From NCBI GenBank assembly GCA_024278345.1, contig JAJRTK010000430.1, positions 1 to 15,298 on the forward strand: a stretch of DNA of 15,298 nucleotides, in the 5' to 3' direction. A program made the translations under genes and the position numbers. This stretch comes from a bacterium (GTDB taxonomy: Bacteria > CSSED10-310 > JAJRTK01). Positions 761 through 15,298 of this stretch are shown in pieces. The number at the start of each line of letters is the position of its first letter. Positions within the stretch are counted from its first letter, which is position 1. The notes below the pieces were generated by a model. That model saw nothing but the letters and a program-made list of their open reading frames with translations. It searched no databases and was not told the DNA's origin.

Positions 761-763
761 GGA

Positions 764-782
764 CTGGGGACGGAGTCCCCAG
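764..782 (-). terminator. Perfect hairpin downstream of the OLD gene; group II intron target
   Basis: On the minus strand, CTGGGGAC and GTCCCCAG form a perfect 8-bp stem around a TCC loop, about 160 nt after the stop codon of the OLD-family gene. There is no T-tract next to it; the intron begins 3 nt later, so any original tail has been displaced. It may be the former terminator of the OLD transcript, or one of the palindromic modules found elsewhere in this window, several of which share the 3-nt loop. Confidence 0.55.
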
Positions 783-899
783 ACGACCGCCGAGCAGCGC
801 GAGGCGTTGGCGCTTGCGGTTCCACAGTCCTGGAATTGTCCCGCGTTGCGTGGATGCCCTCTTTTGTGTTGTCGAGTGTCCCGCCTTCCATGGATGCCC
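764..899 (-). repeat. Dispersed repeat, copy 1 (two GGGCATCCA units plus palindromic module)
   Basis: The minus strand carries a 39-bp segment (859-821) starting GGGCATCCACG and ending TGTGGA. It matches 33 of 39 bases at 13640-13678 on the plus strand. A diverged second unit with GGGCATCCATGG and GCGGGACACT lies at 899-871. After the 39-mer both loci continue with CAACGCCTCGC...GCTCGGCGG and then GGCGGTCGTC(T/C)GGGGAC (here 791-775; 13784-13800 at the other locus). The stretch lies between the OLD stop and the intron and has no credible gene. The pattern of short repeated units resembles multi-repeat IS ends, but no transposase is present, so the origin is unknown. Confidence 0.7.
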
Positions 900-2884: not shown

Positions 2885-4552
2885 CTACTCCACGTAGCCC
2901 AGGGCCTTGAGTTCTTCCACCGCGCGATCCGTGATCGATTCTTCTTCCGCCTCGGCGGCGGCGGGGAGCGCCTCTAGGAGGGTCTCGTAGGACGACCCGT
3001 AACGCGGAGGGCGGCCGGAGAGGAGCTCTGGCTCCAGCGCCTGAGTCAGGATGCGCCCCCCCATGTCCGCCGGGACGGGGAGATTCAGAAGATAAAGCAC
3101 CGTGGGAGCAATATCGGCTACTTGGGCGCCATAAAGAACCCCCGGCTTGATGCCCGACCCTGAAAGAACGATGAACCCGTTGTTCTGGTGGACTCCAGGC
3201 TGCCCTTCCGGCGCCAGTTGACCGTGATCCGTCACCAAGATCCAAATTGCATCGGCCGGCACTACGCGCTGGATCCGGCCGATGGCCTCATCCAGAATGC
3301 CATAGCTATCCTCCACCAAACCGGCCAGTTTGGCGACATTACAGTCCGGCGACTCCCGGCAACGCTGCAAAGGTTTCGGATTGCTCAGCCCCAAGAACTG
3401 GTGGGATGCCGTGTCCACGAGGCGCAAGTAGATCGCCACGAGATCCGCCGGCTCCGTGGAAAACTCTTCCAAGATCCGCAGTCGGAGCTCATCCACCCAG
3501 CGGTGCTCCAGATAGAGCTTTCCCTGGACCTTCCCAAGACAGTCACACTCCAGGGCATCGGCAAGCTCGATTCGCCACTCCTTCACCGCCCGCTCACGGC
3601 TACCCATCAGCCGTTCCACCCGAGGCCAGAGCCCCGACGGGGCAACCAGATCCCGCTCAACATCAGAACCGGAAGAGCCCACAAGATCGCTGAACACCTC
3701 TCCACGGTCGGCCGTGGCCGGCCAAGTGGCCCACCAACCGATGACCCGGGTCTTGCGCCCATGCTCCGCGGCAATCTCCCAAAGGGGCCGGGCCAACATG
3801 TGCTGCCGTGACGCACGCACGGGCTTGTAACCACCGGGGAAATGCCAGCCCTCCTTCATGGAAGCCGAATCCTGCCGGGGATGAAGCCAGCGAATGAGGC
3901 GCCGGGAAGGATCCAAGAGACCCAAACGGCGGATGCGAAGCGCTGGAATCCGCTCTCCCGAAGAGACCACCTTGAGGCGAACCTGAGCCCGGCCGCCTTT
4001 CACCAGAGCCGAAGGAAGCTCCACGAGCCGCACCCGCGGCTCACCACCAAATTCGAACCTCCCCACAGGCCGTCCTTGAAGTGTGACTTCAATCCGAACG
4101 GCAGCATCGGGCCAATTCGACCGGGCGTCCAAGAGCAGAAATCCCGGACGCAACAGGTCGAGATCCAGGAGGCCGCCGCCAGGCCCGCCCATCAAATAAA
4201 AATCCCTCTCCTGAACCGGCGGAAGCACGAAATCCTCGATCCCATGCTGATTGGGGCGCTTTCCGGTGGCGATTGTGGTCCAGACGATGGGACTGAAGTA
4301 GCCCCGGTGCCGCCGCTCAAAACGACGCCAAAGAAGCGAATTCAAGTAGCCGCCGGAACCACTCTCCAAAAGCTTGGCCAGGTGAGGCAGCCCGCCATCC
4401 CGAGTGTACTGGAAGAGGAGATCCCAGCTCCCACCATCAACCCCTACAAGGATCACCGGAGGCCTCGACTCTGACTGGCATCCGGCAACGAACGCCAGAA
4501 AAAAAACCGCGGCAACCCATCCCCATGCGCCGGAACGCCGGGCCTCGTCCAT
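2885..4552 (-). CDS. Alkaline phosphatase superfamily (type I phosphodiesterase/pyrophosphatase-like) lipoprotein
   Basis: A 555-residue predicted lipoprotein. A hydrophobic signal, WGWVAAVFFLAFVAGC, ends in the lipobox cysteine (Cys25), so the mature protein should be lipid-anchored outside the cytoplasm. The catalytic domain shows AlkP-superfamily metal and nucleophile motifs: VGVDGGSWD (Asp39), SPIVWTTIATGKRPNQHG with the likely Thr nucleophile (about 92), DTASH (380-384), DHG (442-444) and a histidine at about 455 in GVHQNNG. An insertion at about residues 140-210 is rich in beta-prone sequence. The C-terminus LKALGYVE is a tail common in bacterial members of this group. Substrate cannot be inferred. 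The frame is open back to 4744, but that extension translates the palindrome array, lacks a signal peptide and is rejected. The Shine-Dalgarno sequence before ATG 4552 is weak. Confidence 0.88.
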   Translation of the reverse strand: MDEARRSGAWGWVAAVFFLAFVAGCQSESRPPVILVGVDGGSWDLLFQYTRDGGLPHLAKLLESGSGGYLNSLLWRRFERRHRGYFSPIVWTTIATGKRPNQHGIEDFVLPPVQERDFYLMGGPGGGLLDLDLLRPGFLLLDARSNWPDAAVRIEVTLQGRPVGRFEFGGEPRVRLVELPSALVKGGRAQVRLKVVSSGERIPALRIRRLGLLDPSRRLIRWLHPRQDSASMKEGWHFPGGYKPVRASRQHMLARPLWEIAAEHGRKTRVIGWWATWPATADRGEVFSDLVGSSGSDVERDLVAPSGLWPRVERLMGSRERAVKEWRIELADALECDCLGKVQGKLYLEHRWVDELRLRILEEFSTEPADLVAIYLRLVDTASHQFLGLSNPKPLQRCRESPDCNVAKLAGLVEDSYGILDEAIGRIQRVVPADAIWILVTDHGQLAPEGQPGVHQNNGFIVLSGSGIKPGVLYGAQVADIAPTVLYLLNLPVPADMGGRILTQALEPELLSGRPPRYGSSYETLLEALPAAAEAEEESITDRAVEELKALGYVE

Positions 4553-4581
4553 CGTCTCGGACACCCAGTGAATTTCGGACC

Positions 4582-4715
4582 CAGCGCCTGGGCTTCCAGC
4601 CCTGGAACCTGATGGAGGCTCCGCCTCCGGACCTCCGCCAGGAGCGCTGCTCCTGGACCTCGCCAGGGAGCTAGCTCCCTGGACCCACATCTTTTTACGC
4701 TCCGCGTTTTTTGGG
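4582..4715. repeat. Palindromic module array, copy A
   Basis: Four short palindromes follow one another on the plus strand, most ending in (G)GACC or GAACC: GGGCT-TCC-AGCCC (4590-4602), GGAGGC-TCC-GCCTCC (4614-4628), CCAGGAGC-GCT-GCTCCTGG (4638-4656) and CCAGGGAGC-TA-GCTCCCTGG (4663-4682). After ACCCAC comes a short ACGC-TCC-GCGT element with six T (4697-4713). The same modules in the same order occur at 15206-15298, and the last ones recur at 13876-13930. This makes up most of the 294-bp gap between the AlkP and DUF4301 genes. The remainder, 4716-4846, holds only a degenerate TACGCTTCGCGCTTTT piece at about 4779-4794. It lies just upstream of the AlkP gene, so it may also affect that gene's 5' leader. 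Confidence 0.85.
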
Positions 4716-4846
4716 AGGGTGGCTACAGTCGCCATCAGACCCACCCCGGGGATCCAGATCCCTGGCCCCCTCTTTGTACGCTTCGCGCTTTTGGCGGCTG
4801 GCCGAACTGATGACCGGGTCCGTGGAAACGCACCTCTGACTCCTCG

Positions 4847-6463
4847 CTACTCACAACAAAAACCATAAGAGCCCAAGGACCGGCCCCGGCAGTCGGTGAA
4901 AACTTTGTGAGGCCGAAATAGGCGCCTGGAAATCTCCACGAACAGCAGGTTGTTGGTCAAACTGTTGCCAATCGCCTCGTAGAGCACGGTCTCATGATAA
5001 TAGACGTCGCGGCCGGCATAGGGCTTCCTTGTGAGCATCCAGAACCTTGGGTCCGTCCGCTCCCGGGCGGGTCGATCCGGGACCAGCTCGTGAAGGACAA
5101 AGGCGGGATTGAAGTGGGTCGCCCGCCGAGGATTTCGGAAGATCTCCTTCTGATCTCGCGCCGAGGCGTGGGGCATTTCCAGGCAAATCTTCACGCGAGC
5201 GCCGCCCAACTCGATGACCGCTGGAATCCCTCCCACGTCCCGCCCATTGTTGGGCACGACTCCCAGGACAGACAACGGCCGGCTCCAAAGCCTGAGAAGC
5301 AACTCCCAACGATCCTCGCCCTCCTTGGCAAGAGCCACCCAATCGGTATGGAAAAACCGTTCCTGAATCTCCTCCAATAAGAGCGCGCCATCTCCCCAAG
5401 AATCTTCCTCTCCAGCCTCGCCATCCGGCAAGGCCAAGAGCTCGACTCCCACCTCCCGGCAGCCGGCACGCAACTGCCGTGCTAATCCCGACGAGACCCG
5501 CCGCTCACCGCACGCCTCCCGCACTCGGTCCAGCAGCTCGAGCCAGCGGTGGTGGAACCCGTAAAAACGGGTAAACTCCTCCACCACCGGCCCGCTATCG
5601 CCAATCACGTTGTCGATATTGTAGACAAGAATGCTCCGATGCCCGCCCAGGGCCGCCACCTGAGGAAAGAGATGGATCAGTTCGCCATGCCCACCCACCA
5701 CCGGCACGTAGCCACCATCCTCGCCAATGACGGGCACCCCTTCTCCGTCGAAGCGAAGCGTCGATAACTGGCTTCCCTGCACCAAGAAGGAAACAGAATC
5801 CGGGCAACCTTCAAAACCGCCAGCTCTGGCGAAGCACTGACGAAAGGCGCCTTCAACTCCTTCGCCCACCACCAGACAGAGCGGCCCAAACGGGTTCAGT
5901 GCCCCATGCTCCCTCAGCTTGAGCTCAAAAAAGGTCTTCCCCTCCAGCGTGGCCGGCACAAGGCCTTTGGGCAAAGAGGCAACCTTCTCCCGTACCTCTA
6001 GAGCCCACCGAATGAGTTCCCCATCCGCCTGGCTCGCCGGAAGCTCCACCTCGAACGGCAAGTCCCCCAAATCCCCCAACCTTCGGATCTCCTCCAAGCA
6101 ATCCACTACGGGACGGGAAAGCAGTTCCCCGGTTTCCAACGCGGCGGCCAGTTCCTGGAAAAGCTTCAAATAGCGACTGGCGGCGCCAGCCGCCGGCACG
6201 AAAGTACAGAGCCTCCCAGCCTTCAGCCCGGCCCGCCCCAGCGCAACAAGCTGTTCCCCGTCGCCCGATGAAAGGTCGAGCACGATACCATTCTTCCGGC
6301 CGCCGACCTCCAGGATCTCGAAAGTGACGCCACGGCCAGCCCGGATCCGTGTGCGAACTTTCCTCCGGTGCGCCTCCACAACATCGGGATCAAGGCCAAC
6401 CCTCAACACCTGGTTCCTATCCAAAGCCACTCCCTCCATTCCTCCAGACGGCGCCCCTCCCAT
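4847..6463 (-). CDS. DUF4301 domain protein
   Basis: A 538-residue soluble protein matching the DUF4301 family, whose biochemical role is unknown to me; the N-terminal glycine-rich motif resembles sugar-nucleotide transferase folds. Family-like blocks in order: FVPAAGAASRYLK (88-100), LVQGSQLSTL (227-236), GGHGELIHL (257-265), YNIDNVIGD (281-289), LGVVPNNGRDVGGIPAV (400-416), RATHFNPAF (447-455) and a C-terminal SLTNNLLFVEI (501-511). The bacteroidal members I recall have the equivalents PASGAASRMFK, GHGAL, KNIDN and THFNP. The start is unresolved: ATG 6463 and ATG 6439 both lie in a 49-bp tandem duplication, while TTG 6424 (GGAGG 8 nt upstream) and GTG 6409 (AGGA 5 nt upstream) have better-spaced ribosome sites. 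The longest ATG form is listed. No signal peptide is seen. Confidence 0.85.
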   Translation of the reverse strand: MGGAPSGGMEGVALDRNQVLRVGLDPDVVEAHRRKVRTRIRAGRGVTFEILEVGGRKNGIVLDLSSGDGEQLVALGRAGLKAGRLCTFVPAAGAASRYLKLFQELAAALETGELLSRPVVDCLEEIRRLGDLGDLPFEVELPASQADGELIRWALEVREKVASLPKGLVPATLEGKTFFELKLREHGALNPFGPLCLVVGEGVEGAFRQCFARAGGFEGCPDSVSFLVQGSQLSTLRFDGEGVPVIGEDGGYVPVVGGHGELIHLFPQVAALGGHRSILVYNIDNVIGDSGPVVEEFTRFYGFHHRWLELLDRVREACGERRVSSGLARQLRAGCREVGVELLALPDGEAGEEDSWGDGALLLEEIQERFFHTDWVALAKEGEDRWELLLRLWSRPLSVLGVVPNNGRDVGGIPAVIELGGARVKICLEMPHASARDQKEIFRNPRRATHFNPAFVLHELVPDRPARERTDPRFWMLTRKPYAGRDVYYHETVLYEAIGNSLTNNLLFVEISRRLFRPHKVFTDCRGRSLGSYGFCCE

Positions 6464-6523
6464 CAGGGCATCCAGCCACTCCCTCCATCCCTCCAGACGG
6501 CGCCCTTCCCATCAGGGCATCCA
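6426..6523. repeat. 49-bp tandem duplication over the DUF4301 start
   Basis: Two adjacent 49-bp copies (6426-6474 and 6475-6523) differ at only 2 positions; each starts GCCACTCCCTCC and ends AGGGCATCCA. The unit length is not a multiple of three, so the upstream copy is in a different frame relative to the gene. The near identity implies a recent duplication. It holds two of the candidate start codons, so it may alter the translation start or 5' leader of the DUF4301 gene. Confidence 0.92.
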
Positions 6524-7367: not shown

Positions 7368-7457
7368 TGGTGCCGAAGGGGGGACTCGAACCCCCACGAG
7401 GAAAACCCCTCACTAGATCCTGAATCTAGCGCGTCTACCAAATTCCGCCACTTCGGC
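7368..7457 (-). tRNA. tRNA-Leu (CAG)
   Basis: The minus strand gives a complete class II tRNA: acceptor stem GCCGAAG/CTTCGGC, D-arm with TGGTAGAC, anticodon stem CTAGA/TCTAG around the loop TTCAGGA (anticodon CAG, reading CUG), a long variable arm (GTGAGGGGTTTTCCTCGT) typical of leucine tRNAs, and T-arm GGGGGTTCGAGTCCCCC. The discriminator base is A, and CCA is encoded (7370-7368). All stems pair cleanly, so it looks functional. Confidence 0.97.
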
Positions 7458-13448: not shown

Positions 13449-13678
13449 AGCGGGACACTTCGAGGATTTTGAAATTGGGGAGACCTATCAGATTCGGTTG
13501 ACAACTTCACCGCCGGGGCGGGCCTCCTTCCCGGCTCCGTGCAGCCCGGAGGGCTCTACACCGGCAAGATGCCGGTGCCACCGTTTCGGCGAAGAAAATT
13601 GTAAAGCAAAAACACGACAATTTGATAGGTCACAAATTGGGGCATCCACGTAAAGCGGGACGCTTCAAGGATTGTGGA
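13449..13678 (+). repeat. Two diverged dispersed-repeat units around inverted GACCTATCA arms
   Basis: Unit one is CGGGACACTTCGAGGATT followed by GAAATTGGGG (13451-13480). Unit two is CAAATTGGGG followed by the 39-bp repeat (13633-13678) with GCGGGACGCTTCAAGGATT. Between them lie inverted arms GACCTATCAGATT (13482-13494) and AATTTGATAGGTC (13619-13631), which pair at 12 of 13 positions. A perfect 8-bp hairpin, CACCGGCA-AGA-TGCCGGTG, sits at 13559-13577. No ORF here is credible. Total size is about 230 bp. It looks like a non-autonomous or decayed mobile element, or solo IS ends, but no target-site duplication is evident. Confidence 0.55.
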
Positions 13679-13803
13679 GTTTCCGGCATCCCGGCAACGC
13701 CTCGCTGTTGCTCGGCGGGTCACGTTTGCGTGACTCGAAGGGTCACGTTTGCGTGACTCGAAGGGTCACGCCTCGCGTTACCCGGCGGTCGTCCGGGGAC
13801 GCT
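13640..13803 (+). repeat. Dispersed repeat, copy 2 (inverted relative to the copy at 764-899)
   Basis: The 39-bp segment 13640-13678 matches 821-859 (reverse complement) at 33 of 39 positions. Both copies are followed by CAACGCCTCGC...GCTCGGCGG and by GGCGGTCGTC(T/C)GGGGAC (here 13784-13800). This copy is longer because a 23-bp tandem repeat has expanded inside it (13717-13770). The collinear order of conserved blocks with variable internal spacing argues for one mosaic element rather than chance similarity. Confidence 0.7.
13717..13770 (+). repeat. 23-bp tandem repeat with GTCACG hairpins
   Basis: Two full units beginning GGGTCACGTTTGCGTGAC (13717-13739, 13740-13762) are identical, and a third starts at 13763 and diverges after GGGTCACG. 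Each full unit contains GTCACG-TTTG-CGTGAC, a perfect 6-bp stem with a 4-nt loop, followed by TCGAA. No coding potential is evident. It is too short and regular to be a CRISPR, as there are no spacers. Confidence 0.9.
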
Positions 13804-13807
13804 GGCT

Positions 13808-13895
13808 GCGGCCCTGTGGGCCGCGTCTCGCTGCGCTCGGCATCCGGCCCCAGGCAGGGCTTTGCCCTGCACCCACCAGGGAGTTACCTCCCTGG
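13808..13895 (+). repeat. Palindromic module array, copy B
   Basis: Three perfect palindromes in succession: GCGGCCC-TGT-GGGCCGC (13808-13824), GCAGGGC-TTT-GCCCTGC (13854-13870) and CCAGGGAG-TTAC-CTCCCTGG (13876-13895). ACCCACG then leads into TACGCTGCGCGTC. The last palindrome and its ACCCAC-(T-rich)-TACGCT-CGCG continuation match the end of the array at 4663-4713. A CTCGCTGCGCTCGGC motif lies between the first two (13827-13841). Confidence 0.8.
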
Positions 13896-13910
13896 ACCCA
13901 CGTTCTTGTA

Positions 13911-14006
13911 CGCTGCGCGTCTTTTTTTGACGCTGCGCGTCTTTTTTTGACGCTGCGCGTCTTTTTTTGACGCTGCGCGTCTTTTTTTGACGCTGCGCGT
14001 CTTTTC
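13911..14006 (+). repeat. Fivefold tandem array of terminator-like 20-bp units
   Basis: Four exact 20-bp units, cgctgcgcgtctttttttga, begin at 13911, 13931, 13951 and 13971. A fifth begins at 13991 and degenerates after ctttt. Units 2-5 carry GACGC-TGC-GCGTC, a 5-bp stem with a 3-nt loop, immediately followed by a T-run (seven T in full units), the form of a minimal intrinsic terminator reading rightward; unit 1 has a 4-bp stem because it is preceded by TAC. The nearest rightward gene ends 480 bp upstream, so no gene obviously depends on it. The exact identity suggests recent slippage amplification of the TACGCTNCGCG module. From 14007 to 14180 only two further CTCGCT...CTCGGC motifs (14079-14111) were noted. 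Confidence 0.93.
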
Positions 14007-14180
14007 TTTCATTCTTCGAGGTGGTTCGATTCTCCCATGAGTGTTAAGTTGATGCCCCCACCTTCTTGTGCGGTGGGCCTCGCTTATGCTCGGCATCTCG
14101 CTGCGCTCGGCACCGCATTTTACCTTTTCTTTTCCTGTCCTGTCTCGCCTTGCGTGGCGCCCGTGGTGAGAATTACGAGG

Positions 14181-14921: not shown

Positions 14922-15195
14922 CTTTTCTTCCTCGAAACCTCGCTGTTTTCCCCGACGACACTTGATTTTATCCTCGAAGACCCAGGAACCACTCAAAAAA
15001 CCGTTAACACCTACTTGCGTTTTTAAAAAGAAAGGCCGTAGCATCTGTCACGGCTCCAGCGGCGATCTCGCGGGAGTCAAAACCAGGAATGCAAGGTAAA
15101 ACGGACTCCCCAAACGAGCAAATGGCCGCTGGCACGGATGGCTAGTGGTAAGAACTCCGGGCCTCGGTCATGGTACCGGCCACGGTTCAGATTTC
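14922..15195. other. Intergenic region with no gene recognised
   Basis: Apart from the weak promoter-like bases upstream of truA and an AT-rich patch (TTTTTAAAAAG, about 15020-15030), I see no ORF with family-like sequence, RNA gene or clear terminator. From about 15196 the region passes into the palindrome array. Confidence 0.5.
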
Positions 15196-15298
15196 AGACG
15201 CCGCCCCGGGGCTTCCAGCCCTGGAACCCGGCGGAGGCTCCGCCTCCGGACCTCCGCTGGGAGCGCCGCTCCCAGACCCACGCCAGGGAGCCAGCTCC
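15196..15298. repeat. Palindromic module array, copy C (cut by window edge)
   Basis: Same order of modules as at 4582-4682: GGGCT-TCC-AGCCC (15209-15221), CGGAGGC-TCC-GCCTCCG (15232-15248), CTGGGAGC-GCC-GCTCCCAG (15257-15275) and CCAGGGAGC-CA-GCTCC at the window end. In the third module two base pairs differ from the other copy and both changes are compensated on the opposite arm, so the palindrome is preserved. The right end is not visible. Confidence 0.85.

Follow-up and report, generated by a model that had tools for sequence, protein, structure and literature searches.

A hairpin array in a bacterial MAG forms the interior of a short inverted-repeat element, probably a MITE moved by a DUF6399-family protein

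Hairpins, repeats and genes in the window

The DNA analysed here (the window) is the whole of contig C369 (G000:C369), 15298 bp in length, from a MAG of 6.06 Mb in 550 contigs with 88% completeness, referred to below as the host. The four successive palindromes reported at this locus in a first-pass annotation are all present (H1 to H4 in Table 1), and they are followed by a weaker stem that is terminator-like by eye only and was left uncalled by a consensus terminator scan. The same set had been claimed to occur in the same order at 15209-15298, and a collinear recurrence does lie at 15207-15298 (85% identity over 88 nt), comprising the first three palindromes and the start of the fourth, at which point the contig ends. 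For the last part of the array, said to recur at 13876-13930, the recurrence itself holds (13876-13925, 84% identity over 50 nt, last hairpin and tail), but the site does not represent a shortened version of the TIR-1-bounded element: it lies in an element bounded by a different terminus, TIR-2, and belongs to a second MITE family (see below).

A profile built from other host copies matched the window sites, and its E-values of 1.5e-47 at 4541-4723 and 8e-43 at 15160-15298 argue that the recurrence of the array is not due to chance. The host has at least 40 collinear copies, with 84-92% identity that extends along most of the array or its entire length, a lower bound given by the best 40 scored of 471 candidates. 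No match to the array was obtained in Rfam at the gathering score, the window's sole Rfam match being a tRNA at 7371-7457, and no useful match was obtained in plasmid DNA. The window also contains a 49-bp direct tandem duplication (6425-6522, 96% identical).

Table 1. Positions of the hairpins and mobile-element features in the window
Feature	Position	Strand	Basis
Hairpin H1	4587-4605		sequence
Hairpin H2, GGAGGCTCCGCCTCC	4614-4628		sequence
Hairpin H3, CCAGGAGCGCTGCTCCTGG	4638-4656		sequence and comparison with other copies
Hairpin H4, perfect 20-nt palindrome, module common to TIR-2 MITEs	4663-4682		sequence comparison
Terminal stem ACGCTCCGCGT (weaker), then T run	4697-4707	+	sequence
TIR-1 MITE copy 1 (B-like, right end decayed)	4541-4742	+	profile 4541-4723, E 1.5e-47
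Left TIR of copy 1, GGCCTCGTCCATCGTCTCGGACAC	4541-4564	+	2 mismatches to TIR-1B
Second decayed TIR-1 MITE, right half, beside copy 1	4735-4818	+	profile E 2.8e-11; 4756-4812, 81%
TIR-1A MITE, left 139 bp, cut by contig end	15160-15298	+	profile E 8e-43
TIR-2 MITE, lengthened to 524 bp by tandem 20-nt units	13640-14163	+	TIR matches and profile
Hairpin module common to both families, in TIR-2 element: GCAGGGCTTTGCCCTGC, H4 (13876-13895) and tail	13854-13926	+	sequence comparison
Decayed TIR-2 element(s), opposite orientation	761-899	-	profile 761-859, E 1.8e-19

Termini and insertion of the TIR-1 element

Terminal inverted repeats (TIRs; 4541-4564 and 15160-15183 at the two sites), not recorded in the first-pass annotation, delimit the array, and the unit proposed there, 4582-4715, proved too narrow, since what is copied is the whole TIR-bounded element of about 200 bp. 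When 30 copies were aligned with their flanks, similarity ended at a 24-bp inverted repeat, the element measuring 201 bp end to end. This terminus, TIR-1A, has the sequence GGCCTCGGTCATGGTACCGGCCAC at the left end, with the reverse complement at the opposite end, and is matched in the host genome 115 times in forward and 118 times in reverse orientation (233 ends), against 0 for the reversed-pattern control. A variant, TIR-1B (GGCCTCGTCCATCGTTTCGGCCAC), has 56 host matches against 0 in the control and takes in the left TIR of copy 1. Copy 1 is 86% identical over 181 nt to another element (L021), and the decayed element beside it ends with a TIR-like sequence at 4798-4821, while the left TIR of the TIR-1A MITE at the contig end (15160-15183) is an exact match. 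In TIR-1A copies H3 reads TGGGAGC..GCTCCCA, that is, both sides of the stem are changed.

The element thus has a length of about 200 bp, no coding capacity and no transposase inside, 24-bp TIRs (the right one decayed in the window copy) and a high copy number, and we hold with high confidence that it is a MITE. Its insertion left traces in the flanking DNA. Exact flanking repeats were surveyed at 109 non-redundant TIR pairs, taken from the host as well as from other genomes; the repeat was 8 bp long in 33, 9 bp in 8 and 7 bp in 1; repeats of 10-13 bp did not occur and nearly all remaining pairs had 0-2 bp. Target-site duplications of 8 or 9 bp were therefore found in 41 of the 109 pairs, and the roughly 60% of candidate pairs without a duplication are explained by chance pairings, decay, recombination or assembly. 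No target duplication was found for the window copies, and copy 1 showed no intact one. When the flanks of genic insertions were joined with one repeat kept, long reading frames were restored, and two of these were checked against Pfam: removal of element C5:335-535 with one GTTCAAGCG gave a continuous ISL3 transposase (residues 3-185, junction at 110, E 1.4e-48), and removal of L026 with one duplication gave a CHAT domain matched without a break over residues 34-347 (junction at 147, E 7.3e-67). This evidence of empty sites comes from excision in silico. With its order kept over many copies, its target duplications and the restored frames, the array behaves as a modular element copied as a unit, as had been suspected.

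The ATG (4550-4552) of a phosphodiesterase-like lipoprotein gene (2885-4552, minus strand) lies inside the left TIR of copy 1 (MDEARRSGAWGWVAAVFFLAFVAGC). The gene probably starts at this ATG, and the MITE may supply its start codon. Read outward, TIR-1 holds ATG-ACC-GAG-GCC or ATG-GAC-GAG-GCC; a general role of the TIR in providing start codons or fusions was considered and rejected, as outward frames are open about equally in all three phases. In the TIR-1A MITEs L036 and L050 (host contigs C25 and C55), a further hairpin (TTGCGCTGCGGCCCC..GGGCCGC..) is nested in H3, and units like it also occur in TIR-2 elements. The same interior is also found between longer termini (GGCCTCGGTCATCGGTGGTGCCTTCGGCAGCTCTCGC..CGGACCCGGCCACCC) in L006, L007 and host contigs C2 and C77, probably another TIR subfamily, and further repeat units (TTACCATGAAAGTACA.., AACACTCATGGGAGAATC..) found beside hairpin modules or elements (L014, host contigs C14, C58 and C108) could possibly belong to a third mobile family.

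Fold, genomic location and rival readings

Intact copies are predicted to fold as a single strand into a multi-branched structure in which a closing TIR stem surrounds several hairpins, with a z-score of -10.5 for L021 and a modest -2.1 for the decayed window copy at 4541-4742. Over 22 copies, 94% of the alignment cells pair, and the covariation score is 0.114 compared with 0.065 for shuffled and at most 0.047 for slid controls, which leave relatedness in, most paired changes falling in the TIR stem and the internal stems showing few distinct events. Selection on the internal fold is suggested, and the closed fold may affect the movement of the element or its effect on transcripts. The paired changes in both internal stems and TIRs would also be compatible with the array encoding a conserved functional RNA, for instance an sRNA or cis-regulator. 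However, the array has no Rfam match, the independent events are few, paired TIR changes are to be expected of a transposon, and the interior was not found outside the host genome among the loci examined, so that this explanation, although the least improbable of the rivals, is very unlikely.

TIR-1 copies are mostly intergenic: of 58 TIR-1 ends with enough flank, 18 (31%) lie in a long ORF compared with 445 of 600 random positions (74%), as judged by a crude ORF calling (greedy long ORFs). With regard to gene ends, no orientation bias was found, the 5′ and 3′ ends of the nearest genes facing the element equally often (29/29). The intergenic location, together with the right-end stem, which is G+C-rich and runs into T, might suggest that the hairpins terminate transcription intrinsically or stabilise mRNAs at gene ends, and were spread along with genes by selection. 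Against this stand the equal facing of gene ends, the TIR bounds and target duplications of the copies, their interruption of genes, and the failure of the consensus scan to call any terminator within the array; we consider it even less likely than a functional RNA, and the conserved order, TIR bounds and insertion evidence bear out the earlier view that these are not unrelated terminators. High copy number, palindromes and a mostly intergenic position are likewise features of REP/REPIN elements mobilised by RAYT-type Y1 tyrosine transposases, but such an origin is contradicted by the 8/9-bp target duplications and by the long TIRs, and the host has no Y1_Tnp match above the cut-off and one weak match, which makes it more improbable still. 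Finally, a recent segmental duplication alone, to which the three similar sites within 15 kb could have pointed and which the first-pass annotation had itself named as the outcome that would overturn its proposal, is refuted by copies throughout the genome with unrelated flanks and is the least credible of all.

A second MITE family and the DUF6399 protein

Array matches that cover the last hairpins only sit in elements with the terminus TIR-2 (GGGTATCCACGCAAGGCGGGAC). In the host genome TIR-2 has 200 + 219 = 419 ends against 0 for reversed controls; in the sample used for the host census (1.25 Mb, 120 contigs) together with the window, 98 matches were obtained against 0 in controls, and 7 of 12 TIR-2 pairs have 8-bp duplications. 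The window MITE of this family has TIR-2 at both ends, with 3 mismatches at 13640-13661 and 5 at 14142-14163, and no target duplication was found for it; the decayed sequence in opposite orientation carries it at 838-859 and 878-899 (2 and 3 mismatches). About five tandem copies of a 20-nt unit (GACGCTGCGCGTCTTTTTTT) at 13918-14004, inside the TIR-2 element of the window, had no counterpart in any other TIR-2 copy that was read over its whole length. Elements with TIR-1 and TIR-2 have in common some 43-62 nt around H4 and its tail, at 80-91% identity, and the ‘mosaic’ is thus a hairpin module common to two MITE families. Recombination would have transferred the module between the families, the perfect palindrome being the probable site. 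At locus C159, the left halves of a TIR-1 and a TIR-2 element meet at H4, the latter inverted; this could be a genuine recombinant or a misassembly.

The first-pass annotation held that no protein accounts for the spread of the array. This is not upheld, as its termini match those of elements encoding a DUF6399 protein, a putative transposase. In a relative from the same phylum (G003), the C-terminus of a DUF6399 protein follows TIR-1 ends, and among eight genomes of the phylum DUF6399 occurs only in the two with TIR-1 elements. A search of named genomes with the TIR-1 pattern gave matches in many taxa, several with TIR pairs and 8-bp repeats, some single matches possibly being due to chance. 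A complete TIR-1-bounded element of 1882 bp was found in a Magnetococcales MAG (L173, 1827-3708), with an 8-bp duplication (CCAATCTT) and one ORF that matches DUF6399 at E 1.6e-47. Another, of 1916 bp with an 8-bp duplication (GTCCAACC), lies on Thiodictyon plasmid pTs417 (L340), its CDS annotated only as DUF6399 and its TIRs detected by an inverted-repeat scan around that CDS in which the motif was not used. The TIR-1 MITEs share their terminus with these two autonomous elements, and DUF6399 C-termini are close to TIR-1 at five further loci (L101, L114, L122, L190 and L215) and in host contig C80. For TIR-2 only partial elements, and no complete autonomous one, were recovered: DUF6399 remnants adjoin it in host contigs C188 and C507, and an element with TIR-2 ends in C390 holds a remnant but no duplication. 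In the 88% complete host MAG no intact DUF6399 gene was detected; there were eight partial matches, of which the two strongest lie at the starts of contigs. An IS91-like gene beside a TIR-1 end in L061 was rejected as partner because DUF6399 is at three other TIR-1 ends in the same genome. The genome JASEGY (bacterium isolate Yes70-08) contributes a large part of the 84 loci matched by the TIR-1 pattern and has many short TIR-bounded elements with 8-bp repeats, and is a second MITE-laden genome.

DUF6399 (PF19936), matched by L173 and the host fragments and annotated in L340-L342, is a family of unknown function; it is tied here to TIRs and 8-bp duplications, unlike in the existing annotation, and no mention of it was found in the literature searched. 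Six sequences were aligned, of which four are full-length and two are fragments: the EGRNG motif is conserved throughout, and DET and SD in every full-length protein, giving conserved D, D and E residues for which a catalytic role is predicted. The protein has a weak rve match (E 0.051), and its structure model (pLDDT 51) is too unreliable for an RNase H fold to be recognised. There was no match to PF01610 and none at cut-off to NCBIfam transposase models; no relative was found in viral contigs, and a PDB sequence search returned nothing relevant. Insertion sequences of the ISL3 family (PF01610) have 8-bp duplications and TIRs starting with GG, and their E is part of an E-G-x-N motif, which appears as TEGLNN in the ISL3 gene of C5 and is paralleled by VEGRNG in DUF6399, but the DUF6399 protein differs in having no PF01610 match.

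Known bacterial MITEs (Correia/NEMIS, ERIC, RUP, Nezha, Chunjie; PMC10969869) resemble those of the host in being shorter than 500 bp without coding capacity, with TIRs no longer than about 30 bp, a stable fold, a mostly intergenic location, duplicated target sites in the younger copies and decayed partial copies. Unlike bacterial MITEs at large, the host element has a G+C-rich array of five hairpins, and the host MITEs have a hairpin module common to two TIR families and DUF6399-type termini; Chunjie and Nezha are likened to it by description. QMITE2 of Coxiella burnetii (PMC5896051), from a different host and again likened by description, is about 190 bp long with TIRs, 7-9-bp direct repeats and a strong fold, and its truncated copies look like REPs, as here.

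From these observations, we consider it very probable that the array is the passenger interior of a TIR-1-bounded non-autonomous DNA transposon (MITE) of about 200 bp. A transposase acting in trans would recognise the 24-bp TIR-1 and move the unit, generating an 8-bp (sometimes 9-bp) target duplication, and this enzyme would most likely be a DUF6399-family protein of about 570 aa with conserved D-D-E residues. Linkage in independent elements supports well the assignment of DUF6399 as the putative TIR-1 MITE transposase. The TIR-2 family appears to use another DUF6399 subfamily, and we infer that DUF6399 proteins are DDE transposases that would mobilise both MITE families, as judged from sequence. 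A wider reading is tentative, and taken as a whole we lean slightly against it: that DUF6399 is an unnamed DDE transposase family of several phyla, borne on insertion sequences with GGCC- or GGG-type TIRs and 8-bp duplications and generating large MITE populations, and that in the present case a hairpin module was exchanged between MITE families and the fold is under selection. Contig ends fall inside these elements in 56 of 217 cases inspected, and the MITE families help to explain the fragmentation of the host assembly into 550 contigs. Two MITE families with common internal hairpins also offer a case for studying the origin of MITE interiors, and a testable function, that of a transposase, can now be proposed for DUF6399, a protein domain of unknown function.
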